Origin: Paramacrobiotus metropolitanus
Taxonomy: Eukaryota > Tardigrada > Eutardigrada > Parachela > Macrobiotidae
Assembly: GCF_019649055.1 (NCBI RefSeq)
Contig: NW_026570252.1
Location: forward strand, 558,001-622,000
Direction of reading: 5' to 3'
Length of the DNA stretch: 64,000 nt
Of this stretch, positions 14,711 through 64,000 are shown one piece after another (the first letter of the stretch is position 1; every line of letters begins with the position of its first letter). The notes under the pieces were generated by a model. That model was not told the origin of the DNA. It searched no databases and worked only from the letters and a program-made list of their open reading frames with translations. The translations under genes were made by a program, and so were the position numbers.

Positions 14711-14930
14711 ACTGTTTCTATGTTTTCTTATGTTTTCTCATGTTTTCTTAGGTTTTCTTATGTTTTCTTATGTTTTCTTATGTTTTCTTATGTTTTCTTA
14801 TGTTTTATTAGGTTTTCTTAGGTTTTCTTATGTTTTCTCATATTCTTTCATGTTTTCTCATATTCTCTCATGTTTTCTTATGTTTTCTGATGTTTTCTCA
14901 TATTCTCTCGTGTTTTCTTATGTTTTCTTC
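14711..14930 (+). repeat. Minisatellite, 10-bp unit TGTTTTCTTA, about 22 copies
   Basis: The units are in strict 10-bp register. Variants include GGTTTTCTTA, TGTTTTCTCA and TATTCTCTCA. Because 10 is not a multiple of 3, the array is open in several frames and gives false Phe/Ser/Tyr-rich ORFs. Confidence 0.95.
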
Positions 14931-19283: not shown

Positions 19284-22200
19284 TCATCGGTACGCGTGGA
19301 TGGTCTCGGCTTCGTAGCGGAGGGATTTCATGACGCGCTGAATATCCTCGGTGATCTCGTGCCGTTGATCCCGCTATTTCAACGACAAAAAATAAACGGA
19401 ATAAAAAAATTATTAATTAAATAAATAAACAAATAAATACTGAAATAAATACCGGACATTCAATTTCTTGGGTAAAAGTACACATGCTGAGAGTGATGAT
19501 GCAGTTTTGCAAGCAGCCACTACACTACGATTATCGCAATAAAAGAATAATTTCATTTCACAACCAAGTATTAAGATACATCAGTCCGATTGATAAATTC
19601 TTCGATTTCACGATAAATATGCTTTTACGACATCTATTTTTCAATCTAATCGATGGATCTGTATTTCTCGCCGTACCTTTACGCAAGAAAAAAGTCACCA
19701 GGCTTGTACATAACGAAAATAAATAACGGTAAATAATTAACTTAACCAAATAAGTGACTAAATAAATGGCAGAACTAAATAAGCCACTGAACACGTAAAT
19801 ATAAATAAATAAAAGAAAACCATCATTTCAATTTTTAAACGTCAAGAAACATCCTGGAAAAAACGTTATCCCTAAATAACCGCTGAAATTAGCTTTAAAT
19901 CAATATTAAACAAATAAAAGTATAAAACCGTAAATAATTAAAAACAATCGGCAATTATTTTGTTTAAAAACATATCGTGCGTATTGTTTGCAAATAACTA
20001 AGGAAAATTAACTGAAAAATACCAATAAATACACAAAATAATAAATAAACAAAAACGCAATCACAGAAGATCTTTGGTCAATTACGAGTAAAATAATTGG
20101 CACTTACCGGCGAGAGATCATCAGCGCGCATCTGGGCCACCTTCTCGGCGTAATCTATCACATTTCCAATGAGCACCGTCACTTTCTGCAAAATAAATTT
20201 AATACAGAAAATATTGTATTCGGTCCGAAGACACATCCACGGCTGTGCAGAACGCATATTACACTAATTACAGTACTGGATTTTTGCATAGGAGAAAAAA
20301 TGCTCAGTAACTTCGTACCAAAATACCATAAATTAATTGCCACAAAAATTCAAAGTGGATTCACGCACAATAATTTCAACTAATAACAATTATTAAATTC
20401 TTTGCTAATTAATAAAACAATTTTCTAAATTTTAAAAAACGATTTTTTTTGAAATATTAATTAATTCTACTTAATAATAAATTTTTCCTTATAAATATCA
20501 ATTAAATGTTCCTTGTTTTGCTGATTAATACATACTAATTAAATTGTCCTTATAATTATGGTTTTATATTTTCGTATTTATTTATTATCATTCAGGCCCT
20601 ATCTTTATGATTTATTAGTTGTCATCTTATTATTTTACAGATATTATTTTTCTTTAATTAAATGTCAAAAAGGAATCAACGCAAACAAATCTATTGTAAA
20701 CAAACAAAAGGGATTAATATCTCAACTAACAATAATAATTAATTTATTTTTTGATTAGTATCAATTTGTTTTTCAATAATTACGCTTTAATTTCTTGCTT
20801 ATTTTATTCCATTTTTTTATTTACATTTATAATTGATTAATTGCCATGCAGTTATTTTGCAGACATTGATTTCTCTCATTAAATGCAATTTACCTTGCCG
20901 AAGCGCGGTGCATAGGGAGGCCGGTTGGGCTGGACGGTGTCGAGGCCCTGGTGGAAGAAGGGCAGCACGATGGGCGTCGGATCGCATTCGGCAATCAACC
21001 GTCCCACACCTGCACACAACACTCAGCAATGCCACCGATTTTCGCCCCAATTTTTCTCTTAACATTAATGGTTGATACAATTAAATCCTCCGATTTATTC
21101 ATTTCATTTTTCTCTTCTTTTATTATTTATTTCTGTTTTTGTTGATCGTGACAATCGACCAGGAAAAATTGAAATACTGCGTATTATCATAAGTCATAAC
21201 AGTCTTACGAAAATTTTTGCCACTTAAACTTTGCACAATTTTATTTCAACGTCAGATCCAATCCTCTAATGCCACTGTACTACGAACGCACTCAATGAGC
21301 CTAATTTCTGAGTAATGATAAATTAGTTTCTGTTTAAAAAACCCCGAAAAACAATTCTAATTCCTTTCAATCAACACGAGGACTAAGTAAATAAAAACAT
21401 ATGAAAATCATTACTGCTCCATAAAAAAAATATTAAAATAAAACTCGGAATTTCAGAGTCAGAGAAAAATCCTAATAATGAAATGGGATTAACATTTTAA
21501 AACAGCTTTATTTTTCAGCTGTATTAATACCACTTGCTGCGTTAATTATTTACAAATTTTGTTAAAGTATTTTCAAAATCTAATTTAGTCGCATATTTTC
21601 CAAACCAAAATAATGAAATTAACCGGGAAATGCTCTTCTTTTAAGGCTTTTTTCCAAACAAATACAACAATGTTTAATCAATTCAAATGTAATTAAAATA
21701 TAAAAACAAAACTGATACAAAACAACCATCGGATATTTTTAAAATTACACAACAAATAATAAAAAGAAGAAGATACTCCTAAGAAAACAAATAATTCAAA
21801 AAATGATAAATCAGCCAATAAACAAATATCACTAAGAAAATAAGCAAATAAATGATATATCAGCGAAAAAATAAATACAAAAATACTGCAAAGAAAATAA
21901 ATAAGCAAATAAACAATAAATCAACAATAAATAAATAAAAAAAATATTACCGAGAAAATCAACAGATGAATGATAAATCAGCTAATAAATAAAATTAAAA
22001 ATACTAGGAAAATAAATAAATGAACGATGAATCCGCCAATAAATAAATAAAAAATATTACAAAGAAAATAATTAATTAATGAATTAACTGATCAGCCAAT
22101 AAACACAAAATAAGAAATATTACTAAGAAAATAAATACATGAATGATAAATCAGCCAATAAATAAACAAAAAATTATCACTAAGAATATAACGAAATAAA

Positions 22201-23581
22201 TGATAAATCCGCCAATGAATTTCCGTACCCCATTTCATCCTGAGCCACTGGTGCTCCTGGTTGACGCGGGCCTCCGGGAAGACGTGCACCCACTCGCCCA
22301 AATTGAGTCGCTCCAGCATGAAGTCCATGCCGCGCTGGTAGACGCCGGCGCCGCGCACCGTCGGAACGACTTTGCCCAGTCCGAAGAAGGTGGCCGTGGC
22401 GTCCGTGGCGAAGCAGATCTCCGCGGCGCCCATCGACCAGCGCGTCCTCCTCGGTCGCAAATGCCGCCACGGGAGAATGCCTACAAGAGCCAAACATGCA
22501 GGTCCTATTCTGGAATTTTTATTTTATTTTTACATCATTTATTTCAGAATTTTATTAGGCTTTTTTCAGAGATATCGAATTTATTTTGGAAAATTTAAAA
22601 CAATTTTCATTAATTTTCTTCCTGAATTTTTCATTTATTGCACAAACTTCTTATTTCCAAAGCCAAGAAATTTTCGTATTTAAAATTTATTGTACGACAC
22701 TACACAAATAAAGGCTATTTTAAATGACAAACCTACAGGAGAAAAAATATATTCCTTATTTCAAAACTTTTATTTCTTATTTATACTTAATTCGGAAATT
22801 TATCAGGTTTTCTTGGGACTTTCTTGAGAAAAAATTTTAATTTTTCCGTTACACTTTTTTTACTTTTGGAAAGCCTCTCTTTTATTTCAGAAATATTTTA
22901 CTTTCAAAGAGGAAATGAAAAAACTTTCGGAATTAAAGATTTACTGGTTTTGAAGTCACAAATTATTTTTGACTCTATTTATTTGTTTATTATTTTTTTG
23001 TTTAAATGAAAAATACTGCCCAAATTGAGAACTCCGAAATTAATAATGCACAATTTAATTCAAATTCCAAGAAAACTGCGCATTATGCTAACATTCTGTT
23101 CCAGCACATCGCACACGGCGTCTTTGAACAGGGAAGTCGCCCTATCACGCCCGCCTCAAACACGCATTTTGCGAAATCAAGAAAAAATGGCAGAACTTTC
23201 CATCTTCTCTCACTAACGCACGAAAACTGCACCAATTTAGTACTAAAAAATAATCAGAAATTTAAAACTCGCCTTACCCCAGATTACGGGATCATCGGCG
23301 CAGCAGTAATGATTGGCGACGGTGATGAGGCCGCGTTTGGGATCGCGATTATCCAGCACCTGCTTCAGACGATCGCGGCCATGTATCTGCAGACCGTTCA
23401 ACGCTAAACACACCAAAAACCGTAGGAATTAATTTCCGAGAAGCATGGCGCAGTTGGCCGATTAAAGACGAGTACCGAGGACGAGCTTGCTGATGGAGGC
23501 GACCGCCGCGATCGTCAGACCGCTTCCCGCATGCCACAATTTCCCCGGGTTATCGGGAAACGGCCACCGCACGCGATCCAT
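19284..23581 (-). CDS. TAFAZZIN: Tafazzin, phospholipid-lysophospholipid transacylase
   Basis: The exons are complement(23476-23581), (23278-23403), (22229-22480), (20894-21009), (20108-20185) and (19284-19373). The total of 768 nt gives 255 aa plus stop, with consistent phases. The start MDRVRWPFP matches the conserved tafazzin N-terminus. Acyltransferase motif HX4D is at 67-72 (NHYCCADDP). Further conserved blocks are [28 protein letters not shown] (145-151), [13 protein letters not shown] and [12 protein letters not shown]. The enzyme remodels cardiolipin acyl chains at mitochondrial membranes. The length is close to short animal isoforms (262 aa in human). The exon 1 donor (CG|GTACTC) is weak and was chosen because only it joins exon 2 in frame. 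Confidence 0.93.
21690..22225. repeat. AT-rich tandem repeat abutting tafazzin exon 3 donor
   Basis: About eight units of roughly 63 bp carry GATAAATCAGCCAATAAATA and ATATTACTAAGAAAATA. The last unit (GATAAATCCGCCAATGAAT) reaches the donor of tafazzin exon 3 at 22228. Confidence 0.8.
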
Positions 23582-25160
23582 CAAAAATATTCAGAAAATC
23601 GAGGATTTACGGACTGTCAAGTACCATGCTCGAGCAACATGAAAACAACAGGAAAAAGAAGCCTACATTACCAAAAAAAATAATCTTTTCAAGGAATCGT
23701 AGAAGGTAATCGACAGGCAACATTAACAAAAAACTTGGGTTTTTCTTCGTTTTCGTTTTCACGTTTTGCCGTGTTTGCGGTTGTAGCTGTTTCGTCATAG
23801 ACATTTCGAGTTTAACGAGCGCCCAAGGGTGGCTACCGCTTTCGCCCAAATTAACACGCGCTCTGGCTGCACGGTTCTGCATGCAGCCGCTGGGCGGTCG
23901 CCCGCGCGACACGAGTAGATGCGGGATTTTTCCCGCCGCAGCCCGCACTCCCGCAGGAACTCCTCGGGATCATCAACAGTATTATCCATACTGCACCCTC
24001 AGCAATACAATCCGATAGTTCTGTTACGCACCCTGATTAACAACCTGAGCTTATTTCTTAACCATAGTCGATTTTTTGGAAGAATTGCAGAGCATTTGAA
24101 CCGTGTTCTGTTCAAGATGGCCACATCGACGTCCATTTTTAAAGCATATAAAATTATAAATGTTTAAATCTTCTGTTGTCTTGATTTTGTGTTTTTGTTT
24201 ATTGAGTGGGAAATTAACGGCCACCACGGGTTTGTCCTGTTCAGGCAGTAAAGGCAGATGGTTGCTACACGCTTAGTTGATCACTTAACGAGACCCAGCG
24301 CGGTTTAGAGATTGCGGGCTATTCCTGTCAAAGCCAACCGTCGGGATTGTCTGCACGGTGCACCCGATAACAAGCGGCCACACGGCATGACCTTTGATCC
24401 TGTACGCGATGGAAAAGCGGTTTTGTGGGTTGCGAAATGCTGAGATCTACTGTGGCCATGTCATATGTGCAGAAGCTCGAAGAAAGCGGGAAGCGCTCCA
24501 CCGTTATAGCTGAAGAAAGCAAAAGCCGGAAGTACGCTTTCGTCGAAGGTTTGGGCTATCTTTTTATTCTCTGGCAGTCGAGACATTTGGGACCTTTGAA
24601 GCGCCTTTCGCTGAACTGATTCGTTTCCTTGGCAGAAGATCCGTGACGTCACCGGGGAACCTCGATCTATGGCTTTTTAAAAAGTTCGTTGGAAATGCTG
24701 ATGCAGTGGCCAGTTTTCGGACGCATCAGCTGCCTATAAACACCAATTACACGTAATAAAGCAGCCGATGACCTTTACAATAAATCTCCACCTGCACTAC
24801 AACTATCACACTTTTGCAGTCAAAAGGAGCTAGCCAGCGGGAAGAAATAAAAACATCTGTATAAATTTATTTTTTGAGTGATCTTTTATTAAACATTTTT
24901 AACATTTTTTAACACATTATTTAACATTTTTTTAAACCTTTTTTATTATATTCTGTCGACAATTAATCTATAAGGTAATTTGCATTGATCTTTTATGAAA
25001 CTATTTATCCATTCGTGAAAACCTGCTCGCAATATAACTTATAATAAGATCTTTGCGAATTAATTTGTTTATTTTGTATTGATTTTATAAATTGACTTTG
25101 TTAATTGATTTTGATTTTGTTAATTGATTTTTTTAATTATTCGCTAACTACAAAGTACAG
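23582..25160. other. Region upstream of tafazzin, no firm gene
   Basis: A 64-codon reverse-strand frame (complement 23795-23989, starting MDNTVDDPEEFLRECGL) is GC-rich and could be a 5' exon. It has no recognised motif and no confirmed partner exon. The 24300-24660 segment is also GC-richer but matches nothing I know. Low-complexity T-rich runs lie at 24880-25140. Confidence 0.4.
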
Positions 25161-25169
25161 TACATAAAT

Positions 25170-26540
25170 TCGTAAATTACACAGTGTATACATTTTTAAA
25201 AAAGGAAATGCGGTTGGTTTTATGAAGTTTTTCAACACAGCGTTGTATCTTTAAGTCGGCAGCAGTTTTGAACGAGGTTTTTCTAGCCACTGCACTACGA
25301 CTGATACATGCACACAAAAATGCTGAGCAAACAGCCGGTGAGAATAAAACTCTGAAAATCAAACGGTAATTATATAAGAAGGAAACTTAAACAACGAACT
25401 TCAGATCCTGCGCCAGCCCATGTCGGACGGACTGCCTAATTTTTGTCGATAATTAATTTTTGAAAAAGGTATATTTGTCAGTGTTGTTTTCCAGAATTAA
25501 TTGTTAAAAATATATTGGATTATTTTTAATAATTTTCCACGCCATTGCAACGATCCCCAAATCAGCAGCCAAACCACATTTTTTGATTTTAATTTAACAA
25601 TCTCGTTTCATCTTTAGCCGCTGGCACCGCTGCACTACAATAGCCCACTAAAGAATAAATAAAAACATCAAACAATTATTTGTAAAAACATGTTTGCCTT
25701 TATTCTTGTGCTAAAATTAAATGTTCAAAAATTAATTCGATTATTTCAGTAAATTCCACTTTACTGCGATGTATCTGAAGTCAGCAGCCGAATAAAACCA
25801 CCTGTTTTTGATATCGTTTCTAGCCACTACACTATAATGAACACACGTAAAAACACACAAAACCGAAACAACCGCCGGCACGAATAGAACTCTAAAAGTC
25901 AGACTTGAGCCCCTGCGCACACGGCAAGTCTTTACTATAATTAATCGTACACCTCGCGCGGCTCATGTACTGCTTGATTTTCGTCGATAATTAATTCCTA
26001 TAAAAAATATTTGTCAAAGTGCTTTAACAGAATTAACTGTCGAAACTTAACTGGGGATTATTTTTTATTAATTTTCCACGTCCGAGCATCCTTTCGAAGT
26101 CAGCAGGCGAATAAAACCATCTGATTTTTCATGTTTTAGCCAGTATGCTACAAGTTTTAGCCAGTATGCTACAACTGTTACCTACTAGTAACACACCATA
26201 ATGAGGAAACAGCCGGCACGGATAAAACTCTAAAAAACCAAACTTCAGCCCCTGCGCGAGCGGCAGCTCCTTGCTGTAAATAATCGTACACGTCCCACGT
26301 CACATATACTGATTAATTGTTGTCGATAACTAATTTGAAAAAAAAATTTTGTCAATGTGGTTTTACAGAACTGATTGTTAAAAAATAACCTGGATTTTTT
26401 TATTAATTTTCCACGTCACTGCATCGTTTTCGGAGTCAGCAGCCGAATAAAGCCAGTTTTAAATTCCCGGTTTTGCCACTACACTACGATTAACACACAA
26501 ACAACACAATAAAACTGAGCAAACAGCCGGCAAGAAGAAA
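25170..26540 (-). repeat. Tandem relics of the ALDH7A1 3' end
   Basis: Three diverged units lie downstream of ALDH7A1. Each carries a copy of the C-terminal coding end plus following 3' sequence (AACAGCCGGCAAGAA, GTCAGCAGCCGAATAAA, TTAATTTTCCACG). The coding parts are at about 25395-25440 (very decayed), 25893-25970 and 26230-26315. The middle copy still reads [13 protein letters not shown] through to a stop. The third has TGA at its fourth codon. Two of them are preceded on the minus strand by an AT-rich GTCGA-containing run ending in AG. The intact coding end at 26552-26640 is the fourth, proximal unit. Confidence 0.75.
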
Positions 26541-26551
26541 GTTGAAACCCT

Positions 26552-29500
26552 TTAAAAATCAAACTTCAACCCCTGCGCGAGCGGCAGTTCCTTGCTGTAA
26601 TTAATCGTACACGTCCCGCGGCGCATATACTGCTTCCACGAATCACTTCCGCTCTCCCGTCCGCCGCCGGTGTGCTTATTCCCCCCGAAAGCGCCGCCGA
26701 TTTCCGCACCCGACGTCGACGTATTCACATTAACGATCCCGCAGTCCGATCCGCCGGCGCCCAGCCACGCGTGCATCGTCCCGATGTTCTGCGTGAAAAT
26801 GCTGGAGGAGAGTCCCTGGTCCACCTCGTTGTTCCAGGCGATGGCCTCCTCCAACGTCCGGTATTTCAGGACGTATAAAATCGGGGCAAAGGTCTCTTTC
26901 AGGATGACCGGGGAGTTGTGCGGGAGGTCGGTGATGATGGTGGGTTCGACGAAGTTGCCGCCCGAAGGGTGCTGGATGGGTTTCCCGCCCACGAGGACGC
27001 GGCCGCCGGCGGACTGGGCGTCGGCGATGGTCTGCTGGTAAGCGGCCATGCCGGCCGCTGTGTGCATCGGGCCGTACAGGGTTTTCGGGTCCAGCGGATC
27101 ACCTGGATTAATAATTAAATTAATCAATAATAATCAGCGATGAATAAAAATATTCCAGCATTTACTGCATTTTTAATTCAGTATTCAATTTAATTTTTAT
27201 TTCTGTTGTTAACTTCATTGCGTAATTGGTAAAGCTTAGCAGAAGACGATCTAGTATTTTATTAACTGAGGGATTCATTTTACTTTACCTTTTTCAGAAT
27301 TTCGCTTTAAAGTCTTAACTGGAATTTTAACAATTAACATCATTAACAATAAGTAAGTACTAGTAATTTATTGGTAACTGAATTGTTAGAAAGCCAATAA
27401 AAAATAATCCAAACGACAGCGCGATTTCATGGCTCCGATGTACTCGACTACTCGTATGCAAGCAAATTAAACAAATTAGGCTTCCTGGATCGCATTGTGA
27501 TTCATCTTTTGTCCATAAAAAGCTTCAATCAAATACAAAAAGAACACTGATAAAAAAATTACATGGAATCTGGGTGTTTCTAAATTTTTCGTGACAAGGT
27601 TCATCTATAAGGTTCACCTATTGATCTATCTAAATGCCATCGCACTACGTTAGATCAGCACATGCAGCAGTGCACAAGATCACTTAATATGCCATGATAC
27701 ACAGAAACAAATAAAAAAAACACATTTAAAAATCAACTGCAAGTAAAAAATGATTAAAATTAAAAAGACGAATTAAAAATGCATTTTTTCATATTTTTTT
27801 AATACAACTTACCCATGCGGCTGGGGATCTGCGCGTAGGCCGCTTGCAGCCGTTTCACCACCTCCTCATACACTTTTTCCTGCACAATCAGTCTCCGGAT
27901 CGTCGTGCAGCGCTGCCCGGCGGTGCCCACGGAGCCGAAGACGACGGAGGGGATGACCATGTTCAGATCGGCGTCCTCGGCCACCACCACGGCGTTATTC
28001 CCGCCCAGCTCCAGCAGCGGCCGGCCGAAGCGGGCCTGCACGCTGTTGGCCACTTTCAGCCCGATCTGCGTGCTGCCGGTGAAGGATACCAGCGGGAGGC
28101 GGGTGTCCGTCGCCAGGGCCTCCCCGACGTCCGCGCCGCCACACACCAGACTGCACAGTCCCGGCGGGAGGTGGTTGCGTTGCAGGACGGTGTTGAGGAC
28201 GTGCTGCACGGCGATGGCGCATAACGAGGTGCTCGGCGCCGGTTTCCATACCATTGTGTCGCCTGCAAATAAAAAATCCGGGTATTTTGTACAATAATAA
28301 ACAAAATGAAATTTTAAATAATATTCATAACACATGCGATTATTTATTATAAATTAATTTATCCTTAGTTTATTTACAGGTCATTTGAAATTTAAAAAAA
28401 ACTTACTGAATTTATTTAAAAATAATTAAGAGGAATATCTTAAAAATAATAGGAATATTTTCAAGACGATTGTTTTTCACCGGGTATTTTTTACAAGGAA
28501 AACCCAAATTATCAAAAACATGAAATTGTAAATATTGTTCATGAACCATAACACATGTGCTTATTCATTACTTAACAATTAATTCACCTTAGTTTACTTA
28601 CGAGTTACGATTAATTTGAAATTTCCTATTACAGTATTATTTTTGACATATACCTCCTAATTATTTTTAAATAAATTCTGAAGTTAAGTTCCCACTGCAT
28701 AACAAACTAACATACACAACTGATTTTTTATGAAAGTTTATTTACTGTAATTATTCAATTCAAAAACAAATATAAAAGATGAGATTGGAATATAACTCAG
28801 TAAAAGATTTCTGTTCATTGTTCGACATGGTCTCGTAGCCCGCACTCTCCATTTCGCAAAGGCCATTGCACTACAATTAGCCTATCCTCACACAAAGAAA
28901 ACTGAGAAACACCGGCAAGATTAAAGATAAAAAAATTAATCTTCCACTCCTGTATAACTGTTATAATAATTCTCATAATTACTATAATTAACCCTCGGAA
29001 TAATTATGCACACACGCGGCCAGAGTAATACCAAAGATTAAAAAAACCTAAAAAGCCAACTTCATACCCTGCGCCAACGGCAGCGCTTGCTGTAATTAAT
29101 CGTACACGTGCCCCGTCGCACAAACTGCTGAATTCCGTCGACAATTAAACATTTTTAAACACACCAGAAATAACAATAGAATCAAACATAATTCTGGTAA
29201 GTCCTACGCTAACCGTTAAAACTTGAAAGTCACGAAATATAAGAAAAACAACACTGTACGAGGATACCCTGTAGGAGTACAGATAAATACGCGAAAAAAA
29301 TTAGCAAAGCAGGGGTCATTTATTTCAGCTAGAGTAAAAAAAATCAGGCATCCAGGAAAAGTTTAAAACGGAATTTAGAAAATTATTCCATGTCCACGAA
29401 TGTCGTTAATGCCCTTAGCATGTACAGTACAACACCGATCGAGTACCCAGAAGGCAGTGGTAAGCCACCGTACTACGAAACACCGCTAAAGGCGTAGTAA

Positions 29501-34900: not shown

Positions 34901-34969
34901 GGCGTGTTCCGCACGATTGTCGAAACGCTGGAAACGAATTCGCAAAATAAACTCAACGCGGACCAATAA
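31915..34969 (+). CDS. NUBP2: Cytosolic Fe-S cluster assembly factor NUBP2 (Cfd1)
   Basis: The exons are 31915-32058, 32168-32256, 32674-32783, 33073-33227, 33760-33870, 34171-34240 and 34815-34969. The total of 834 nt gives 277 aa plus stop (human 271), with all phases consistent. The deviant Walker A motif SGKGGVGKS is at 24-32. Further conserved blocks are [36 protein letters not shown] (Walker B region), VTTPQAVS and [14 protein letters not shown]199 and C202 form the CxxC that binds the bridging cluster in NUBP1-NUBP2, followed by EC at 204-205. It acts as the partner of NUBP1 on the scaffold of cytosolic iron-sulfur protein assembly. Confidence 0.95.
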
Positions 34970-51100: not shown

Positions 51101-54100
51101 TTAATCCAGTGGCTGTACCTGCCCGACGCCTTCTTCGCCCCGAAAGCCAGCATCTTAATCGGGGATTTTTTCCAGTTATTATTCGCGTGCTGTCAGTGGC
51201 GGGTGTTTAATCTGGAAGCGGTGTACGCCAGTGAGCAGTACGAAGGCGGGAGTAACGAGAATATCATTCGCTCGGGGAAATACCGGAAGATCTTCGAAAA
51301 TCCCGTGCCGGATTTTATGACGTACACGACATCGTATCTGGACGTGCTGAAGGTGTTCACGTTCAATTTCATGTACTGGGTGACGCTGGCCGTGGTGTTC
51401 ATCGCGGGGACCAGCCGGATTTCCATGCTGTGTTTTATGTATCTGTGCGGGTGCTTCTTCTTCCTCTGGCACGGGAACGAGTTCTTCCGCAAGCCGATCA
51501 AACGGATTATGCGCCAGTAAGTTATATTGTTGTGGTTTCTTATTTTTTGAAATTTTTATTTTTTACATACCTGCATTTTTAAATGCCATAGCAAAATTTA
51601 TGTTAAGAAACAATAATAAAATAGAATACTAATAACAATAATAATAATAACAAAATAGAACAGCATTAGATTAGAATAGTGAGTGTTATTGATAAAATAA
51701 TTTTATTAAGGATCAAACGGATTATTCTGCAGTAAGTGCAGTATTATGTTGACTCTGTTGAGTAAGCGTAGTGCAGTGGCTGTTTGAGTCCCGGCTAACA
51801 CTATCAGTCCACAGCGGTAAAGAAAAAGATTTGCAAAATATGAAAAATAATAATCTGACTGGATCAGAATTTCGAAAGTTTTTTTCTCAATAATTGTGTT
51901 AAAATTTTGGGCAACAAAATTATCTAAATTAGAGAAACCAGGACCATGGCTATTTCACATAGGAATCATCTTCTGCTGCTGTTGAGTACGGGACAAAATT
52001 GAAAATAGTTATTGCTGCTGCCCTCAAAAATGTGTTTATACATTTCCTTTGAAATAAATAATTTTCCGAAAATAGCTACCGCAAATCAATCGTTTTTACT
52101 ACACAGCCGAAATTACTAAAAAAATTTGCATAATTTATAAAAGACTACTTATATCAACGATCCAAACGCATTGTTGTGCCAGTGAATGTGCTATAGATCG
52201 TCAGAAATCGTAGTGTATGGGCCGTTCATTGGGTTCTACTCGTCTTCAATCAAGTAGCTGTATTGTGATAAAGAATATCGTCCAAATAAGTTTTTCGGCA
52301 AATTGTTTGGGTATGGTTTTTATAATTTTTCTTTTATTTTTTTCACAACAAAAATTGTCGAATTATTTGGAGGAATTTTTTTGAAAACTTATTTATTTTA
52401 GTATGTGATTTCGTAAACTGATTTGCCATTGCTGTAACAGTTTCTGTTTGAGAGTAATAAATAACATGGCAAACAGTAAATCCTGAATAAATATTAATAA
52501 TAAAATTTATCAAGCGATCAAACCGGCTATTACGTTGTTTGGCATTGAGCGTGCTTAATGCTTACTGCTGTCATCCATCGTAGTGCAGCGGCTAGTCGAA
52601 ATCGTTGGAATTTTCTGAAGACTTTTCGGGCAGTTAGTCTTGAAATACAGCTGAATAATTTTCAATAAAATGTTAGAATTGTATTTTTCGTGAAAATTGT
52701 ATTTTGGCTAGAAATTTTAGTTTTCGTTATTTTTCATTGATTGCTTGCATTTTAACAACAAATTGAACCTTTAATAAGTATCGTGGTACGAGTGCAAACT
52801 ATGCACCAGAACAAAACGGCATTTACAAAAGAAACACTTCCTCTATGCTATCCTGGTCGGGGATCGTACCCATTACACAAATCGCGTTTCCCCGTTGTAT
52901 TTGCATAGATATTCGCTGTTTAAAAAACTCTTTCGCCCGCTTTTGGCCAGTTGAAGCCGCAATACCGTTTCCAACCGTTTCCACTAGCTTTTTAGTACCA
53001 TCTCCAAAAGGTCCGTAAATTTCGAAGGCTGCGGCAACGAAGCCAATCAAGCTGCACGAAGCCAACAACAAAGCCAATCAAGCTGCACGATGTAACGAAT
53101 TTTTAAAACTTTTTCAGCCGAATGGTTTACTGCATGAATGGGGTTTTGCATTTTTTCCGGGTAGGAATTAATAATTGGATTTAACCTGTTTTTCTGAGTA
53201 GGTGTATAATTTCTGACCTGTTTTTGAACGATGAACAATGTGCTAATAATATTTTTATCGCTTTTCGTTGTCTTTTAAATCAGTAGTAAACACCTGACAA
53301 GGAATAGCAAGGAAAAAAAATCTGGTAGAATAAAAACGTAAATCAATTTTAAAATCAAATAACGATATCTGCAGTTGAAAGTGGTCATTATTTAAAACTG
53401 CCGAACGGGAATTTTGTTTAATTTTAATGTTAAAATGCAGACGGAAATTTGAATTCACAAACTATGTTCGATTTTTTTGTTTCCTTCACTGCCACAATAT
53501 TTTAGGCTTAGTAATCGGTTTTTTCTAAGCGCCGACATTTTTTAATATTTTTTTGGTGTCACATTTATGGAAAAAATATATGTACAGTTATTTACAATGT
53601 CGCTGTTGCGACGTTCGGTCTTATAACTGCATAACATCACACATAGCATCTGTTTTTGATCGACGCATCAATTCGGCCACTGCACTACATACTTTTCTCT
53701 AAAACTGAAAATACTGCATCTGACTCTTGCAGGTGGAAAAATTTCGGTAAAAAATAATATAATTGAAAAATAAAACGTTATCAGAAAACAATTCTAAATA
53801 TAATGGAAAATAAAATGTCGTTTTAAAAAAATCAGTTGGAAAACAAAATTTATTACAAAAATTAAAATAACTGGAAAATGGAAGATAATTAGAACATTTT
53901 TACTAGAATAATGCATTAAAATTTTTGGAAAATAAAATTTAATTTTGAAAGATCATTTGGAAGCAAAATATATTATGAAAAATTAAACTGGATTTTAAAA
54001 TAAACTGGAAACTTGAAGACCCAGATTAATCAGAGCAAATTAAAATTATCTACAATTTTTCTGCCATAAACAGGTGGAACATTTTCCTCACCGGTAACGT

Positions 54101-57100
54101 CCTGATCATCCTGCTCAAAAACCACATTCGTCTGGAAATAAAATTTAATTAAATAAAAAGATTAAACTGGAATATACAATTTAATTCGAAAAATATGAAA
54201 TTAATTACAATTTTTTATCGTAAACAGGTGGAACATTTTCCTCACGGGTAACGTCCTGATCATCCTGCTCAAATGCGTCCTACAGGGCGTGGGATGTGTC
54301 CACCTCGCCGGTTTACAGCAAAAGAACTGCTGGGTAATCCAGTTATTCGGGATCGCCTGTCTGCGCTTCGCCGACGGCGGCCCGACGGTCGTTAAGTCCG
54401 CCGCCGCCGCCGTCGCGCTGCCCCTGGAGAAAAGCGGCGCGGTGGTCAGCGGTATTGCCGGGGATAGCGCGGTGTGCGGCGCCACCACCGGCGACGCCGG
54501 CCTGGTCCTGGACGCCGTGGTCTTCGTGTTTTTGCTGCTGCAGAAACGCATCTTCTCCAGCTGGTACTTCCAGTGGGTGGTGCTGGAGCATAAAGTGCAG
54601 TCGGCGTTGGCCAGTCGCGGTGCGGAACTGATTAACGGCCAGGTAATAAATATTTAAATAAGTGATAATTTTAATAAATAAATGAATGATAATACGTGTG
54701 TTAGGAATATTTACAATTTAGTATGATGAATAATTGCTAAATTTCGTATTTTAATTAAATAAATGATTCATAATTTGGTACAAATGTTAGGAATATTTTA
54801 CGAAAAATTCACTTACAACTTTGCAGAAATAAATAAAGAAAATAGTACCAGTAAGCTTTTTTATTGGAAATCAAACCGGCAATTTAATCCGTAAAAAATG
54901 GAATTTATTAATGTAATTCCGCGCTGATTAATTACAGCCGCCGAATTTATCACTTATTTCGAAATTAAATTGGATGACCTTAGTTATTGCAGATCACAGT
55001 AACAATCAAATTTAACAAATTAATTCCGCATGTTGTTAATCAAGAAAATCCTGTGGGTTTAGTTAGAAAAAATTGAAGCGAATACTGTAATTCGCGAATA
55101 CTGTAATTGATAAAAGCTCTAGTCCATGAATAAATCGTACGTTTGTTACAGAATTTGAATTTTATTATGTGGTTTAGTTTTCATAACGCTGTAACATACA
55201 ATCGTTATGGATGGAAAAGGGAGTTTTGTCGTTTTGATTATAAACTGGCTAATGGGATGGAACATGTAGGTGCAAGATTACACGAATAAGCAGAAGGAGG
55301 ATGAGTGTAAGGTGATGGAGAAGATTCGCCGCAAAGTGGAACGCATCCGCGAGCGACAGAAACGCTTTAAAGGCACCGTGGAGCCGGCGCTGCCGGTGGT
55401 GGTCCCCATTGAGGTGCTGGGCACGCCCAAGGATCCCAATTTCGAGGAGCACTACCAGAGTGAGTCAGGCAAAATTTAATGCATTGGACATTATTTTGTA
55501 TGAATTTTCTGTGCTTGACCGCTGTGGAGTGACTCCACAAATTCGTTTTTAGAAATAATCAATTTTTTTTGAATACAAATAATAAGGAGAAAGCGTAAAA
55601 AATTAAAAAAAAATTAAAAACGAAAAAAATAAAACATATTACATTTGGTTTGTATGTCGGTTGGCAGACTGCCAGATGCGGAGGAAATTAAGAATCTGGG
55701 TGTATTAATTTGTGTATACTATGAAATTCGCTGATTTAATAAATTAGTAGATTCGCTGGTTATGCTGATTAATTGCACAAATTAAATTAGTCGATTCCAT
55801 AGTGTAATTAATGCGAAATTACATGAACATGGTGTTGTGGTTTACATTTGGTTGTAATTTATTTATTCTAAATGCACTGTGATTGTAGTACAGCGGCTAT
55901 AATCTCGCGTTCCGTTACACTAGCGGACTTTGTATGTCGCAGTTTGTGCTACGACAGCTGTTCGTCGGATTAAATTTACAGCACTTATTTTCTGTTAAAT
56001 CAATTTAAGAATCGTATTTATATTAAATAAATTTTAAATTTAATAAATTCAATAATTGTAGTTGTATTTCAGAAGTTCAAAATGTCTATTTAATAAATTC
56101 CGGATTTATATTTAATAAATTCGGATTGAAACTGTAGAATTTGGTTTTCGCAGGGAGAGAAAGTCTCTCTTATTTTGCGACAAGTTGAACAAGGTCATCC
56201 TTGATATTCATAATTTATTGTGGTTGGCGCATACTCTACTTGGTGTTTTCTCGTGTGTGATGGTGGACTGGTGGTTAACGAAATAAAATTATAATGGTCA
56301 ACGAGAATTTCTCTGTATAGCGACACGGTCCGGAGATTACTACATGTTCGAGGATTCGGATTCCGATGAGGATGACATTAATCTGGCGCCGTCGCGGCCG
56401 CCCGAAGAGGATAACGATCCCGCCCAACCCACCGGACCCGATCCCCTGCAGGTGCAGTTTTTTCTCAGATTTTTTTATTTATTGCTGCGATAATTTTATT
56501 TTTAAAAATTAACTGTATTTTATTTAATATTAATTAAAGTTGTTTTTATTTTTTTAATTAATATTTATTTAAATTCTTTTATTGCCATACTGGTAAGACT
56601 AATTTCCCGAATTAATCTGTAATTAAAAAACTTTGATCGTTTAGAGGTTCCATGATTTTTTTGGAAATTCGTTAGTTTTTGCATTTTTATTCCCATAAAT
56701 TTACTGAGTGTTGTTGGTGCGTGTGTGTAGATGCTGAATTACGCGGTGATGATGGACAACATCAAGAACGTGGTGCACGATATTAAAGTGGTCAGTGAAC
56801 GCACGGAGTCGGAGCGCGGCAGCGAATTCGCCAGTCCGCAGCAGCGCAACTCCCTCCTGCATCTCAATCAACGCGTAAGCCAGTTAACTGAATGAAATGT
56901 TTTTCTTATTATATTTTTTTTGGTTGTAACTTTTTAATTTATTTTTTTTTGTAAAAAACTGAATGATATTTTATTTCTTTACTGCGGCTATTACTTGTTG
57001 ATGTTTCTCTGCTGTAAGGAATTACGTGATGTTTATTTTGCGTTTTTGTTTATTTTTAGAATTACGTGATGTTTATTTTCCTTTTATTATTACCTGGCAT

Positions 57101-60100
57101 TGTTTTTTTTATTTTTGTGCTGATTTTTCTTTCCTTTCTTATCACTTACATTTATGTTAACTTTTTGTTCTTTTTCCCTATACAAATTGTATAAATGGTT
57201 GTTTTCAGCGCAGCTGCCTGAAAATTAATACGGTTATTTATTTTTATGTCTTTTATATTTTTCCTAAAAGAAAATTTTTATAAACGGTCATTTTCAGCGC
57301 AGCCGCATGAAAATCAATACTGTTATTATTTTAATATTTTTTCTATAAGAAAATTGAATAGAAAATTATTTTCAACGCAGAGCAGCATAAAAATTAATCC
57401 TGTTATTGATTTCTATATTTTTCCATAAGATAATTGGATAAAAACATATTTGCAGCGCAACAGCCTGAGAATTAATTTGTTATTTAATTTGGTATTTTTC
57501 CCATAAAAAAATTGAATAAAAAACATATTTGCAGCGCAACAGCCTGAGAGTTAATTAGTTATTTAATTTGGTATTTTTCCCATAAAAAAATTGAATAAAA
57601 AATAATTTGCAGCGCAACACCCTGAGCAGCGAGCGCGCGCGGCTGCCCTCCGTCGGCACGGAGATGACCGCCGCCCCCACCTCCGCCCCGACCCTCCCCA
57701 CGGTCCACCTCTCCCCGGTGCACTCGTTAACCAACCTCCACGAGCACGACGACGACTCCCCGCTGGAACCCGGCCGTCTCCCGCGCTCCATCAGCGACAC
57801 GGACGCCGTCCTCCTGGCGCACGCGCTGGACGAGATCCCCGACGCCCCGAGCAACGCCAACATCTTCGTGGAGCCCGAGGCGCCGAGTAGTGTGTGGGAG
57901 AAGGCGTACCACGTGACCATCTTCGCCAAGATGTTCATTACCCGGAGTATCGATGAGCTGAATGTTAGACTGAATAAGATTAGCAAGGATTTCCGGTTTG
58001 TGGCGGATAAGCTGCGGACGGAGAAGCGGCGGATGAAGAAGTTTTATGTGCAGAAGGTCCGCGAGTATTTTGACCGGGTGGCCGGGGTGGCCGCCACGCC
58101 CGTGGATAATCCCGAGGAGGTGGACGCCGCCATCGAGACCGTGGAGAAGGTGGCGCTGGGCAAGCCGGGATTGCGTTCCCAACGGTAGGCGGGGCTTGTT
58201 GTAATTTTAAATGATTTTTATTGCGTTTCATTAATTTAATTTGGATTTTTTTTCCCGATTTTCCCGGACTGCGCGCCGAGCGGTAGACGGGGGGTAGTTT
58301 TAGTTTTTCTAATAATTCTTTTATTTCTTCTGATTATTCTTTTTCATTTTTATCATAATAGTTGGAAAATGTTTTTATTTTTTCTGGTTATTAATTTAAT
58401 TTGTATCACATTTTGTAATTTTTCTGGTTATTTTTTTTAATTTTATCATATTATTTGGAAATTTTCTTCTAATTTTTCTGGTTAATAATTTTATTTTTAT
58501 CACATTTTTAATTTTGTTCTAATTAATTTTTTTATTATATCATATTATATTTAGAAAGTTTTTTAGTTTTTCTGGTTGCTAAATGTTAATATATTTGTAT
58601 CACATTTTTTTAATTTTTCTTTATTATTCTTTTCATTTCTGTCATATTAATTGGAAATTTTTTTAAATTTTCCTTGGGTGCGCACGTTGCGAGGCGGGCT
58701 AATTTGTGTTAGTTTTATGCTTTTCTGTTTCTTTAATTTCTTTGTGCTGCGCATCCGCAGAAGGGCGTGGCGTAAATTGAGCTTTGTTGCTTATTTTCGG
58801 TGTTATTACAAGATTTTCTATTTTTTCCCGACTGCGTATTGTAATCTAATATTATGATGGTTGTAATTTTAATGAAAGTTGATAAATTCAAAGATGTTGG
58901 GAAATTTCCACTTTGGAATTGCGACAGTAATCCGCGCTGTTTTCGCCTGCTGATCCGACAGTAGTACGCGTTGAGTGTGGTGCTAACGTAGTAGAGTGGC
59001 TCTTAAGCGTTGGGATCGTGTTGATGTCATAATGAGCGTTTTCTCTCATTTGCTATTAATGAAATTTCTCAGCTACTTTTTTTCATGAGATTCAACCGCC
59101 AATGTTATCCGACCACCGATTAATAATATTTTGCTGGGATTAATATAAAATTAATTTTATCTGGCGAACATTATTCTAATGCACATATTCTCGTAAAATA
59201 CATAGTACTTAGTTAGTTTGGAGAAATGACAGAGTAATTTCGATTAATTAATTACAGAGAGGAATTGATTAATTTTGGCAATAATCATATTAAAATGCGT
59301 AATCTAGTACGATCAACGATGTGCTGGAAATAATTTCTAAGCTCTACATGTTTAAAATTTAAATAATTTTAAATTTAATTTAATTTTAATTTTTAACCTA
59401 TTTATTTTTATTTTTTTTATTGTCGTTCCGATCGAAATGGACCCTGAAATTACCGTGTCGTACTGAAAATTTATTAGCCACAATACTGTCTTAGATGCAG
59501 TAATACTAATAGTAATCTGCGTTATTTTTTTATCAATTTTTTTTATCTGTATTATTTTTTATATTTTTTTTATTTGAATTTTCGTCGTAGATCGGAGTTG
59601 ACCTTAGAATTGCCGGGGCGTAACGAAGAGGAATTCCACCAGCAGCACAACGTCTTGATGCGCTTCGTCATCGCGGCATACTTCGCGTTGATGGCGCGCA
59701 GCGAGTTATTATCCTATTTCATGATCATCCTCTTGCAAATGACCTCCGCCACCGTCCTCAGCCTCCCCCTGCCCCTGATGCTCCTCCTGTGGGGCTCCTT
59801 ATCCATCCCCCGCCCCACGCGGGCCTTCTGGGTGGCCATCATCACCTACACCATGTTCTGCGTCATCGTCAAGTATTTCTTCCAGTTCCCGTTTATCCCG
59901 CAGAACTGGCCGCTGTACGGGAATCCGGACGACCCCCTGTACCCCCCGAAGATCCTGGGGGTGGAGCGGGCCAGTCACTATGCCAGCTTTGATCTGGCGC
60001 TGCTGTTGGTGGTGTTTTTTCATCGGTCGGTGTTGAAGAGTCTGGGATTGTGGCGGACGGCGCGCGAGGAGAAGGAGCAGGAGAAGAAGGAGGCCGTGGA

Positions 60101-63100
60101 GGGCGGCGAGGGGCTGGCCAGTACGTCGCATGCCGCCGAGGTCAGTGAGAATGATTATTTTATTTTTTAGGATTTTGTATTGAATTCTTTTTGGATGCTG
60201 GTAATTTATTGGGATTTTTTATTGATTAAATTTGGTATTTTTTTATAATTTTTTGGATCGATGAAGGTATATTTAATTCGGTTTCTTGTAGGTTAAATTT
60301 AGTTTAGTATTTTTAAGAAGGTTTTTGTACAGTTGAAAATGATTGGGATTTTTTCAGTCAGTAAGAGTTAATAATTTATTTTTTAGGATTTTTTTGGGAT
60401 TTTTTGCAGAGTAAATTTAGTAATTTTTTATAATTTTTTTGGACGATGTATATTAAATTTATTGGGATTTGTTGTAGCTTAAATTTGTGTTTTGTGATAA
60501 ATTGTTTGGACGATGTGAATTTATTACGATTTTATGTTGAGAAAATTGGTATTTTTTTAAGAATTTTGTTAGGGCGATGTAGATTCATTTATTAATGTTG
60601 TTGATTAAATGTAGTATTTTTTTATAATTTTTTGGACGATGTAAATTGAATGGGCTTTTTTATTGATTAAATTTGGTTATTTTTTTAAGAATGTTTTTGG
60701 GTGCTGCTAAGTGATTGGGATTTTTCGGGAGCTTATTTTTTAATGTATATTTATTTTGTAATTCTCTCATTTATGCCAAGTACGTCGCGTGCCGCCGATG
60801 TCACTGACAAAGCTGGGGAATCAATGGGGATTTTCGGTTCATTGTAAAGTCTTTTTTTGTAATTTTCTCGTTTAGTTTTCTGGCTTAATATTATGTTATT
60901 AGTATTTTTAACAGCGCAAGGTGCTATAAATTATTAGGATTTTGCCTCATTTTAAGTCGAATATTTGTTATTTTTGCATTTTATTTAACTTGGTTATTTT
61001 TATGTAAGTATGTGATGAATTTTCGCTTTCGGCGATGGGAGGGGCTGTAAATTAACTGTGGAATTTTTAAATGTCCATTTTTGATTTTAAAATGGGATTT
61101 TTTCAAAGTGGCCTCGAATGTGTGTCGAGCATTTCTATCTAGCCACGGGGTGAATGTAGTACAATGGCATATTCTCCACGGTTCCTATGTGGTCTAGTTA
61201 ACCGATTTGCACTTGAATTACTTAGTTAAAATTCCTATTCTTTTTTCAGAAAAATACGAGTAAAATTCCTTTATATAAAAATTTGTTTTTACAACAATTA
61301 AAATACAGTAACATAATATATGTTCTCAAAAAATGATGATAATAATGAATTTTATTTCCACATGTGACATTTTATTTCTGCATCAGACTCCATGTGTAAT
61401 TTGTTTCGAAAAATACAATGTAAAAATTTGTTAAAATTTAATTGGGCATTAAGACAGTTTCCTCGTTGTAAAAAAACTAGGTGGTCTTCACGCCGGACGT
61501 GGATGTGAAAGAAACCCGCATGAGCGGATCCTGCATATGCAATATATGCACCGAAATATTTGCAGTATTATATATATTTGATACTTTCACAATCATTAAT
61601 TAATTTATTAATAAATAACGAAGGATAGTGATAGTAACAATAATTTTTTCGATAATATAGAAAGCTATTCGTGATTTAATTAAATATAATAATTTTAATA
61701 TAATATTTTTAAAATAAATAGGTGGTCTTCACGCCGGACGTGGAGGTGAAGGAAATCCGCATGAGCGAACCGAGTAAATCCGAATTATCGCAGTTACCCT
61801 GGTATAAACGCTGGTACGCTAAAGGGCAACGCTACATCCAGTTAGTCAACAACTACACGTCCCGTTTAAACACCAACGTGTACTCGTACCTCTTCCTGTG
61901 CGATTTCACCTGTTTCATGATCGTCGTGGCTTGTTACTGGGCCTTCGGACCCGACGCCGGGGGAAAAGACAACATTAAGGATTATTTCGAGGAGAATCGC
62001 GTCCCGACCGCGTTTCTCGTCATCTTGATCATCCAGTTCTGCCTGATGATTCTGGACCGGGCGCTGTATCTGCGGAAGAATTTAAAGGGGAAATTGGTGT
62101 TCCAGTTGGTGCTGGTGTTGACGGTGCACGGGGCGTTCTTCTTCTATCTACCGAAGGAAACCGGGAGGATGTTTATCCGCAGTTGGCCGTTGCAGATTTG
62201 GTATTTTGTCAAGTGTGTGTATTTCTTATTATCCGCGTATCAGATTCGCTCCGGGTATCCCACGCGGATTTTGGGGAATTTTCTGACGTACCGGTATACG
62301 TATACCAACCTCTATCTCTTCAAGGGGTAAGTGTTTTTTTTTTTTATTTCATTTAATTATGGAATTATTAGTTGTATTTATCTGCGCTTTTTTATTGTTG
62401 ATTTCATTTTAAAATTTCAAGATTATTCGTAATTATTGCTTTTATTTTGCTACTATTTATAAGAATTATTATGGTAATATAATATTTATAGGAATTATTA
62501 TGTTATCGGTTGGTTGTGCGTGTGAAAACTGAGAAATTCATTGTATTTTTTAGTGATAATGGCATTTTTGTTATAGTTCTGCTATAATGAGTTTTATTTC
62601 AAATTTTTATTACTCCATTACTAATGAGATTTTATATCGTGTTTGTTGTTATGGATTTTATTTGAATTTCTTATCATTGAATTAATTCTATTTATTTGAT
62701 TGTTGAATTTAGAATTCTAGTTTTCGGTAACGGAGTTTATTTTGATAACTGCATTTTACATAATTTGCGAATTAATCTTGCAGCTGAATTTACTAAGCTT
62801 GTTCTGGTAAAAGTTTTTTTTGTCTTTGTTATTGATAAGTAATTATTTTGGAATTAGAGAAGGATGTCTGCTTGAGATTTCCTCAGGTAGTAATGGAAAA
62901 CGGAGAAATCGTAGTGTAAAGGTGCAAAATCCGTCACAGGAATTGCCGTTATTTATTACCGATTAAAACTATTTATTTATTTATTACCGATTAGATGTGA
63001 AATTTGCTTGGGATGTTTTGAAATTCCTTAGTTAAACAATTTTTTTTTCAGTAGTAATAATTGTTCTGAATAATCGTAGTGTAAGGGTGGAAATTCTGGC

Positions 63101-64000
63101 CCATGTGATGACCGATTGCCGTCACATTGCATCGCTTAAAAATTTCTTTAAATTGGAAAATTGCTTGAAAAATTCATGTTTGTAAATTCCCGTGCTGCTT
63201 TATATTTTTACCGATGAGAATACCTGTGCTGAATAATCGTGGTGTAAGGGTGTGCGAAATCTGGCTAAAGATGGTGGCTGATTGTCGTCATTTACCACTG
63301 AATAAAAATTTATTAAATGTGAAGATTGCTTGTCAAATGACTGTTTTTAAATTCCCTGGCTAATTTATGTTTTTATCAATGATAATAATTATGCTGAATA
63401 ATCGTAGTGTAAGGGTGCAGAGTCAGGCCCGTATGGCTCCCATTTAGTACCGATTAACAATGGCATAAATTCGAAAATTGCTTGTAAAATACAAATTTTT
63501 AAATTCCCTTGCTAATGTATATTTTTTATCAATGATAATAATTATGCTGAATAATCGTAGTGTAAGGGTGCAAATTCTGGCCCAAATATTGACTGTGCGC
63601 CTTCATTTACCATCGATTAAAATGTAGTAAATTTGAAAATTACTTGTAAATGAATGTTTTTTTTAAAATCTCTGGCTAATTTTTTTTTATCAATGATAAT
63701 AATTTTTGCTGCATAATTGTAGTGTAAGAATGCAGAACCTGAGCCAAAAGATGGATAATTACTGTCGTTTAATACCGATCAGAAGTTGAATAAATTCGAA
63801 AATTGCTTGTAAAATGAGTATTTTTAAATTCCCTGGCTAATTTATGTTTTTCTAAATGATTATAATTATGCTGAATTATCCCAACAGCTTCATCATCATT
63901 CCCTTTTTAATGGAGCTGCGCTCGCTGATGGACTGGATCTGGACGGACACGTCCATGTCCATGTCCGAATGGCTGAAGTTAGAAGATATCTACGCGAATA
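36110..64000 (+). CDS. Piezo: Piezo mechanosensitive cation channel, 3' end missing
   Basis: Twenty-three exons are visible: 36110-36179, 36474-36569, 38306-38425, 38624-38666, 39364-39801, 41094-41250, 41894 (or 41876)-42049, 42265-42297, 43226-43681, 44737-45075, 45932-46080, 47036-47342, 48237-48592, 49118-49464, 51054-51516, 54228-54642, 55270-55459, 56321-56451, 56731-56874, 57613-58184, 59591-60140, 61722-62326 and 63888 onward. All join in frame, giving about 2,083 residues. Piezo landmarks include SYIMSLIAMMSWSVIYHSW, VFQLVLVLTVHG, WYFVKCVYFLLSAYQIRSGY and MELRSLMDWIWTD. A charged coiled coil (KVMEKIRRKVERIRERQKR, about 1340) matches the beam. The acidic DYYMFEDSDSDEDD follows. The blade's repeated transmembrane units are present. 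The rest of the anchor, the extracellular cap and the pore lie beyond the window. Exon 16 has an unusual Ala/Gly-rich insertion. Confidence 0.96.
39944..40172 (+). repeat. Two relic copies of the Piezo exon 5 donor end
   Basis: The exon 5 end (GGATAAGGACTCTTTCCC then TCACG|GTAAGG, at 39779-39807) recurs at about 39952-39981 with donor GTATGG, and at about 40138-40168 with donor GTAAGG. The intron sequence between them also repeats (TTTTTTGCCGAATATTT). Period is about 175-187 bp. Confidence 0.85.
42990..43200. repeat. Tandem duplication upstream of Piezo exon 9
   Basis: Two units of about 105 bp share ACGC-GCGCCG-TGAAAAATA, GCCGCA-TTTATTAAAAAA and TTCATTGGAA/TTTATTGGAA words. The second ends about 25 bp before the exon 9 acceptor. 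Confidence 0.65.
44295..44736 (+). repeat. Tandem copies of the Piezo exon 10 acceptor edge
   Basis: Two relic copies of the exon start (TCCATGTTCACCTTCTTTTT) lie at 44312 and 44526, upstream of the real start at 44737. Period is about 212 bp. The first keeps an AG acceptor; in the second it is GG. Intron words such as TTTGGCTGGTGAATATT are repeated too. Confidence 0.88.
46860..47015. repeat. AT-rich tandem repeat upstream of Piezo exon 12
   Basis: Three or four units of about 45 bp carry GAAATAAATAAATTGAAAT followed by TTGCATAAATTT-like words. They end about 20 bp before the exon 12 acceptor. Confidence 0.65.
49525..50390. repeat. 430-bp tandem duplication in Piezo intron 14
   Basis: Two units share GAAGCTCG-CTTGATTTTGCAG, GGTATGAAAACGTGTCT, GCCTCTGCACTACAATCT and TTAGACTACTATTCCGGTAA at a constant offset of about 430 bp. 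Each includes a reverse-oriented A-box-like tag. Confidence 0.9.
50755..51060 (+). repeat. Five-unit repeat of the Piezo exon 15 acceptor edge
   Basis: Units of about 60-75 bp each have TATTTTTATGAAATATA, TTTGCCCTTTTTTT and a version of the first exon bases (CGTATCCCTGGGATCGG in the real exon; CCTTCATGGGATC, CCTCCATGGGAT, CGTATCCGTGGGATCG and CCTCCATTGGATT upstream). Only the last unit has a CAG acceptor. Confidence 0.85.
51767..51800 (+). repeat. A-box-like tag with adjoining B-box-like word
   Basis: GCGTAGTGCAGTGGC fits the Pol III A-box pattern (TAGTGCAGTGG). It is followed within 10 nt by GTTTGAGTCCCG, close to a B box (GTTCGANTCC). The spacing is too short for a tRNA, so this looks like an internally deleted tRNA-derived repeat head. 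Confidence 0.5.
54066..54131 (+). repeat. Relic copy of the Piezo exon 16 start
   Basis: From TAAACAG onward the first about 46 exon bases (GTGGAACATTTTCCTCAC... to CTGCTCAAA) are repeated almost perfectly 154 bp upstream of exon 16. The acceptor AG is kept. One substitution turns CACGGGTAAC into CACCGGTAAC. The copy then diverges. Confidence 0.9.
57200..57612 (+). repeat. Six-unit repeat of the Piezo exon 20 acceptor edge
   Basis: The acceptor plus first exon bases (GCAG|CGCAACACCCTGAG) has upstream versions at about 57208, 57297, 57375, 57455 and 57535, most of them with an intact CAG. Period is about 76-90 bp. The two nearest read CGCAACAGCCTGAGA and then hit in-frame stops, so using them would truncate the protein. 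Confidence 0.88.
60180..60740. repeat. T-rich tandem repeat in Piezo intron 21
   Basis: Roughly seven diverged units of 60-90 bp share TTGATTAAATTTGGTATTTTTTTA, in parts, and TTTTTTGGACGATGTA. Confidence 0.7.
60778..60815 (+). repeat. Relic copy of the Piezo exon 21 donor end
   Basis: AGTACGTCGCGTGCCGCCGA followed by TGTCACTGA matches the exon 21 end AGTACGTCGCATGCCGCCGA|GGTCAGTGA at 60120-60149. The donor GTCAGT has become GTCACT. Confidence 0.85.
61479..61530 (+). repeat. Relic copy of the Piezo exon 22 start
   Basis: TAG|GTGGTCTTCACGCCGGACGT and the following GGATGTGAAAGAAACCCGCATGAGCGGA repeat the first about 48 bases of exon 22 with few changes, 241 bp upstream. The acceptor AG is intact. 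Confidence 0.9.
62895..63885 (+). repeat. 163-bp tandem array carrying the A-box-like tag
   Basis: Six units have the tag AATCGTAGTGTAAGGGTG starting near 62908, 63073, 63237, 63401, 63553 and 63716, a spacing of 152-165 bp. Other shared words are GATTGCCGTCATTTACC, GAAAATTGCTTG and TTTTTAAATTCCCTGGCTAA. The array ends at the acceptor of Piezo exon 23 (63887). Confidence 0.92.

Follow-up and report, generated by a model that had tools for sequence, protein, structure and literature searches.

Locally duplicated exon-intron boundaries resembling lancelet mirages in a Piezo gene of the tardigrade Paramacrobiotus metropolitanus

A 64,000-nucleotide stretch of the genome of the tardigrade Paramacrobiotus metropolitanus (RefSeq assembly GCF_019649055.1, contig NW_026570252.1, positions 558,001 to 622,000; hereafter the window) carries animal genes, among them a Piezo gene whose introns hold diverged copies of the edges of several of its exons. 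Seven of ten open frames score above their Pfam family cut-off, including a rhodopsin-type G protein-coupled receptor (GPCR), an acyltransferase, an aldehyde dehydrogenase (two frames), ParA/NUBPL and Piezo, and searches of the PDB lead to Piezo and to antiquitin/ALDH7A1. No relatives of Piezo were found in viral and prokaryote collections, where animal relatives are not expected. The genes with the Acyltransferase and ParA domains are presumably tafazzin and NUBP2, labels taken over in part from an initial annotation of the window.

Exon models were rebuilt in silico by means of a simple gene finder based on codons and splice sites, and those predicted for Piezo, NUBP2, ALDH7A1 and tafazzin use GT at 36 of 36 donors. 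Four tiny and doubtful 5' exons of Piezo (37152-37216, 38139-38172, 38738-38769 and 39279-39285) were left out, upon which the exon numbering equals that of the initial annotation; also left out of the counts were the exons predicted for ALDH7A1 upstream of 30938 or downstream of 26554, and the start of NUBP2 exon 4 was taken as 33075 instead of 33034. The 36 introns of these four genes provide 72 exon edges, and the 40 nt of exon at each were compared with the adjacent intron, equal lengths of other introns serving as the null (floor P = 0.005). The GPCR model, with two introns, was used only in the analyses of array ends and of GC content and codon position, which raises the number of introns there to 38, and other predicted genes at 1-19 kb were left out of the edge tests.

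Eight of the 72 edges reach the floor, where 0.36 would be expected by chance, and 12 have P <= 0.05. All eight belong to Piezo, namely the donor edges of exons 5 and 21, the acceptor edges of exons 10, 16, 20 and 22, and both edges of exon 15, and both ends of introns are affected (three donors, five acceptors). The initial annotation had reported one to five nearby edge copies for precisely these seven exons, and all were recovered: two copies each at exons 5 and 10, four at the exon 15 acceptor and one at its donor, five at exon 20, and one each at exons 16, 21 and 22. A self-BLAST at E <= 0.01 recovers seven of the eight edges, missing the exon 15 donor. In the introns of tafazzin, NUBP2 and ALDH7A1 none of 28 edges reaches the floor (lowest P = 0.030), a difference from Piezo (Fisher P = 0.019) that has to be read with the general richness of Piezo introns in duplications (145 of 531 windows). 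The copies at all eight edges are direct in orientation, and no inverted copy with exon sequence was found at threshold for any of them; the one inverted match at threshold, at the exon 15 acceptor, has a score of 27, equal to the null maximum of 27, and comprises intron sequence only.

The exon part of the best copy per edge measures 14-46 nt plus the junction and is never longer than 46 nt. The weakest copies, two at exon 20, have 4 exon nt each, and the core GT or AG is kept in 11 of the 17 copies (counted on the copy alignments). The copies take two shapes (Table 1). At exon 5, exon 10, the exon 15 acceptor and exon 20 the repeat unit itself spans the exon-intron boundary and is arranged in tandem; unit lengths are about 180, 214, 66 and 79 bp, and the overlap into the exon is 38, 33, 16 and 14 nt, respectively. 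The exon 15 donor and exons 16, 21 and 22 each have one lone copy, of 27, 111, 32-36 and 61 nt, respectively. The earlier view that just the edge is copied fits exons 15 (donor), 21 and 22 and in part exon 16, but the units at exons 5, 10, 15 (acceptor) and 20 include much intron. The copies reported for the C-terminal segment of ALDH7A1 likewise exist, yet they carry the end of the coding sequence with its stop codon and not a splice site. The exon part of the exon 16 edge copy (54037-54119) is identical at 45 of 46 positions, as if recently converted or constrained.

Table 1. Predicted gene models, exon-edge copies and repeat arrays in the window
Feature	Position	Strand	Details
Piezo, rebuilt model	36110 to window end	+	23 exons
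NUBP2, rebuilt model		+	
ALDH7A1, rebuilt model		-	
Tafazzin, rebuilt model		-	
Piezo exon 5 3' edge, master copy	39764..39801	+	donor at 39802
Exon 5 edge copy 1	39951..40014	+	24 exon nt and 40 intron nt; GT retained
Exon 5 edge copy 2	40125..40168	+	38 exon nt and donor
Tandem array across exon 5 donor	39764..40268	+	unit about 173-188
Array across exon 10 acceptor (44737)	44301..44769	+	unit about 214; 33 nt of exon; decoys around 44302-44344 and 44516-44558
Array across exon 15 acceptor (51054)	50731..51069	+	unit about 66-70; 16 exon nt; AG absent from all four copies
Exon 15 donor edge, lone copy	51711..51737	+	21 exon nt and GTAAGT; 188-nt spacer
Exon 16 acceptor edge copy	54009..54119	+	46 exon nt, 1 mismatch; original 155 bp downstream
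Array across exon 20 acceptor (57613)	57164..57626	+	unit about 79; 14 exon nt; five copies, AG in four
Exon 21 donor edge copy	60775..60810	+	21-24 exon nt; 659 bp from original
Intron 21 array	60141..60725	+	begins exactly at exon 21 donor
Exon 22 acceptor edge, lone copy	61466..61526	+	46 exon nt, 3 mismatches; 180-nt spacer
Array before Piezo exon 23	62907..63880	+	unit about 163; stops 7 nt short of exon
Array after tafazzin exon 3	21754..22220	-	unit about 57-116; begins 8 nt past exon
Duplicated pair after tafazzin exon 4	20604..20885	-	begins 8 nt past exon
Array across ALDH7A1 stop codon (26552-26554)	25263..26635	-	unit about 320-340; 81 coding nt; no splice site

The lone copies could have arisen differently from the tandem ones, by repair of staggered double-strand breaks in which the edge was duplicated around new filler DNA. 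Their spacers (188, 44, about 620 and 180 nt for the exon 15 donor and exons 16, 21 and 22) show no significant alignment with the sequence expected of a tandem unit (P = 0.55, 0.15, 0.23 and 0.25, the first 200 nt being tested for exon 21), and the units at exons 5 and 10 gave P = 0.005 in the same test, a weak one in which null draws could include the region itself, also for these two units. Single incomplete pairs are, however, also present within introns, so decay or later insertion could explain the spacers, and the exon 21 spacer itself contains another array; break repair appears a rather unlikely origin for these four copies.

Duplication is by no means confined to exon edges. A significant copy within the same intron exists for 169 of 736 intron windows of 40 nt (23%), as compared to eight of 72 edges, or five of 68 tiled exon windows at 0-39 nt from an edge, and the initial proposal that exon edges are a hot spot therefore fails when judged by copy frequency. 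In the self-BLAST (E <= 0.01), seven of 72 junctions are spanned against 1119 of 5783 intron points (19%), a ratio of 0.50 (bootstrap 0.19-0.91); with junctions spanned at half the rate of random intron points, the edges are not enriched by the comparison with random intronic segments that the initial annotation had itself named. Matches at this threshold cover 20.5% of intron bases versus 2.3% of exon bases. Deeper within exons, copies are near background, at two of 63 windows 40-79 nt from the edge, two of 82 at 80-159 nt and four of 177 beyond (P < 0.011), or 8 of 322 with about 3 expected, which leaves room for a slight copy excess inside exons. Local direct duplications with spacings of about 60-660 bp are frequent in the AT-rich non-coding DNA of this window. 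Two other sources of edge copies are not favoured: protection from deletion near exons, given that duplicates cover no more of the intron next to edges than of the deep intron (15 of 68 versus 119 of 476), and templated insertion from anywhere in an exon, given the low interior count above and the lack of inverted exon copies.

The positions at which arrays end offer a different picture. Self-matches across the 38 introns cluster into 22 arrays at E <= 0.01, and in 16 of these at least one end lies no more than 50 nt from an exon edge, compared to 5.3 expected under random placement (P = 4e-5; P = 7.5e-4 under a rotation null). Among wholly intronic arrays, nine of 15 do so (2.18 expected, P = 6e-5), and the first window tried (-46 to +8), which was taken from the data, holds 11 of 22 against 2.9 expected. 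At E <= 1, five of 18 wholly intronic clusters end within 8 nt of an edge (0.66 expected). This clustering of array ends at coding edges is provisionally regarded as real and lends the hot-spot proposal a provisional support that copy frequency denies it. The arrays described earlier as abutting exons do lie 7-33 nt from tafazzin exon 3, ALDH7A1 exon 3 (30 nt) and Piezo exons 9 (33 nt), 12 (30 nt) and 23, but the one assigned to GPCR exon 3 is 139 nt away. Because the ALDH7A1 array crosses a stop codon and four arrays end 0-8 nt outside an exon, the splice signal does not seem to be needed for duplication.

It could be that the duplications fall at random within introns, those at edges merely staying recognisable for longer owing to their complex sequence and to selection on one of the copies. 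Such an account would compete with the clustering at edges and not with local duplication as such. It sits well with the rate at which intron windows are copied, twice that of edges, and with the seven of 20 arrays that straddle an exon, where random units in the absence of purging predict 6.3. All seven overlaps, however, are 46 nt or shorter, when only 2.0 such are expected, and the wholly intronic arrays, the detection of which owes nothing to an exon, also end at edges. On balance, purely random placement seems somewhat unlikely.

Recognisable second copies amount to 3,876 of 30,280 intron bases (12.8%), and local duplication thus lengthens introns, as the initial annotation had suspected. 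Longer introns tend to hold more duplicated sequence, both in number of bases (rho 0.67, P = 8e-6) and as a fraction of the intron (rho 0.62, P = 6e-5). The prediction that decoy splice sites are created was also borne out, with five exon-edge copies (three donors and two acceptors) among the 45 intron sites (19 donors and 26 acceptors) that equal or exceed the median strength of real sites. The decoy donor of exon 5 copy 2 scores 8.61 versus 8.42 for the real donor, and four of the five decoy acceptors at exon 20 outscore the real one. Decoy positions include 39975, 40163, 51732, 54074, 57209 and 61481. These values give a local measure of recognisable duplication in intron DNA and of the share of the strong decoy load that stems from exon copies.

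Decoys of this strength raise the prospect that the copies are functional, as decoys or alternative exon starts under selection. Several equal or beat the real site, 11 of 15 mismatches to the exons fall at third codon positions, and the copy at exon 16 differs at one of 46 exon nt versus 15 of 63 intron nt (Fisher P = 0.0018). Against this, AG is lost from all four copies of the exon 15 acceptor, and the core dinucleotide from six of 17 copies overall; pairs of intron copies should in any case diverge about twice as quickly, and the tests are small and post hoc. A function of this kind is considered very unlikely. Still less credible is an origin in misassembly or in one mobile element. Intron repeats are generally known as a source of assembly error, yet the exon-touching matches, at 69-90% identity in the self-BLAST, fall short of near-perfect, and the sequence is particular to each locus. 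As the initial annotation had recognised, the copies differ from locus to locus; the units seen in self-matches are locus-specific, which does not favour one mobile repeat, and only four Piezo self-matches (E <= 0.01) lie at least 1.5 kb apart.

The reading preferred here, to which a probability of about 0.75 is given, is that the copies stem from local duplication of a minisatellite-like kind, which in places crosses or adjoins an exon boundary in the manner of the structures known as mirages; this figure does not extend to any preference of breakpoints for edges. Local direct duplication, frequent in the AT-rich non-coding DNA here, would arise through slippage or unequal exchange, and its unit sometimes takes in an exon edge. 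With the outer, original splice site still in use and the copies confined to the intron, the protein would stay the same and the intron would become longer. The copies, presumably near-neutral, would then decay and leave relics of exon edges, some of them still carrying an intact decoy splice site, and selection may remove those that arise inside exons. A more doubtful extension, offered tentatively, is that local duplication in this genome breaks preferentially at borders between coding and non-coding sequence, splice sites and stop codons alike, from which introns and 3' flanks would grow outward and continually seed decoys.

Several observations weigh against local duplication of this kind or against its extension to breakpoints. 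At half of the eight edges the spacers of the copies fail to align in the way a simple tandem unit would, within the limits of that weak test. Three windows inside exons beat every null draw; they lie 40 nt into Piezo exon 3, 280 nt into Piezo exon 16 and 160 nt into tafazzin exon 3. Mismatches between exon and best copy per edge are distributed 1/3/11 over the three codon positions, with more at third positions than wholly neutral copies predict; synonymous-site changes in the exon explain part of this excess, and weak selection on the copies could account for some as well. Loosening the threshold to E <= 1 merges clusters, and the clustering of array ends is then lost (12 of 33 against an expectation of 10.4, P = 0.27); at E <= 1e-4 with a window of +-25 nt it has P = 0.055; moreover, the array-end windows were chosen post hoc, for 22 clusters at one locus. 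From 0.55-0.58 over the final 20 nt of exons, GC content falls to 0.29 at 20-40 nt inside the intron, but where arrays end away from an exon there is no significant GC step (0.054, P = 0.13, n = 27), so that melting or composition as a cause remains a guess.

The window displays other sequence features. The 16-nt motif AWCGTAGTGYARNGGC is sharply bounded and found on both strands between 2267 and 63568, for instance at 26476 (-), 40418 (+), 51765 (+) and 52577 (+). Its 15-mer core has 21 matches with at most two mismatches, all within 19.5-63.6 kb (0.58 expected), which reduce to 16 sites after merging two duplicated groups and have flanks without strong conservation. A matrix built from these sites has 35 matches, five of them in 1-19 kb, versus a mean of 1.1 and a maximum of 4 in 10 shuffles. 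The motif fits the A-box pattern of RNA polymerase III, TRGYNNARNGG; no tRNA genes and no Rfam families were found in the window, the motif included. An array of 21 copies of the decamer TTTCTTATGT occupies 14715-14929. Introns look T-rich on the sense strand, the AT skew being positive or near zero at 16-32 kb, where genes lie on the minus strand, and negative at 32-64 kb, where they lie on the plus strand, with an exception at 52-56 kb (+0.002).

The structure that recurs here along a single gene is already described as mirages in lancelets, in Adh3 and troponin C among other genes, as papers citing Canestro et al. (2002, NAR 30:2871) report. Lancelet mirages are minisatellite-like tandem duplications of exon-intron boundaries in the globin genes BflGb6 and BflGb9 (PMC3087553), and PGBD5 of lancelet has boundary repeats of 60 and 108 bp, with Adh and troponin C cited alongside (PMC3902484); both intron ends are affected and splicing is reported to be undisturbed (PMC3087553, PMC3902484). 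As in those accounts, the unit in Piezo combines exon edge and intron, both edge types are involved, several copies may be present, splice signals are kept in some, and a route of intron change is proposed. Unit sizes are 10-160 bp in lancelet and about 66-214 bp at the Piezo splice edges, and identities are 81-100% in BflGb6 and 69-90% here. Unlike the lancelet cases as described, many edges of one gene are involved, some copies are lone and an edge at a stop codon is included; a tandem, minisatellite-like arrangement holds at four Piezo edges, the other four being those set apart by the weak spacer test. No statistic on array ends at coding edges was found in the available parts of the open-licence papers searched.

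Internal tandem repeats at exon-intron boundaries, affecting introns and splice sites, are also reported from human segmental duplications; these are recent, often polymorphic and often transcript-changing (PMC2812944), whereas here the copies have diverged and the gene model predicted in silico is intact. Tandem duplication has furthermore been discussed as a source of introns under the Rogers model, for potato RdRp (PMC4974935) and for cases in Drosophila (PMC2891723). The duplicated segment in that model likewise bears an exon edge with splice signals, but no new intron appears to have formed here, since the copies lie inside existing introns and the outer sites of the predicted model give an open frame. 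The window thus extends the mirages of lancelets by numerous edges within a single large gene, and makes edge-anchored intron growth testable genome-wide.

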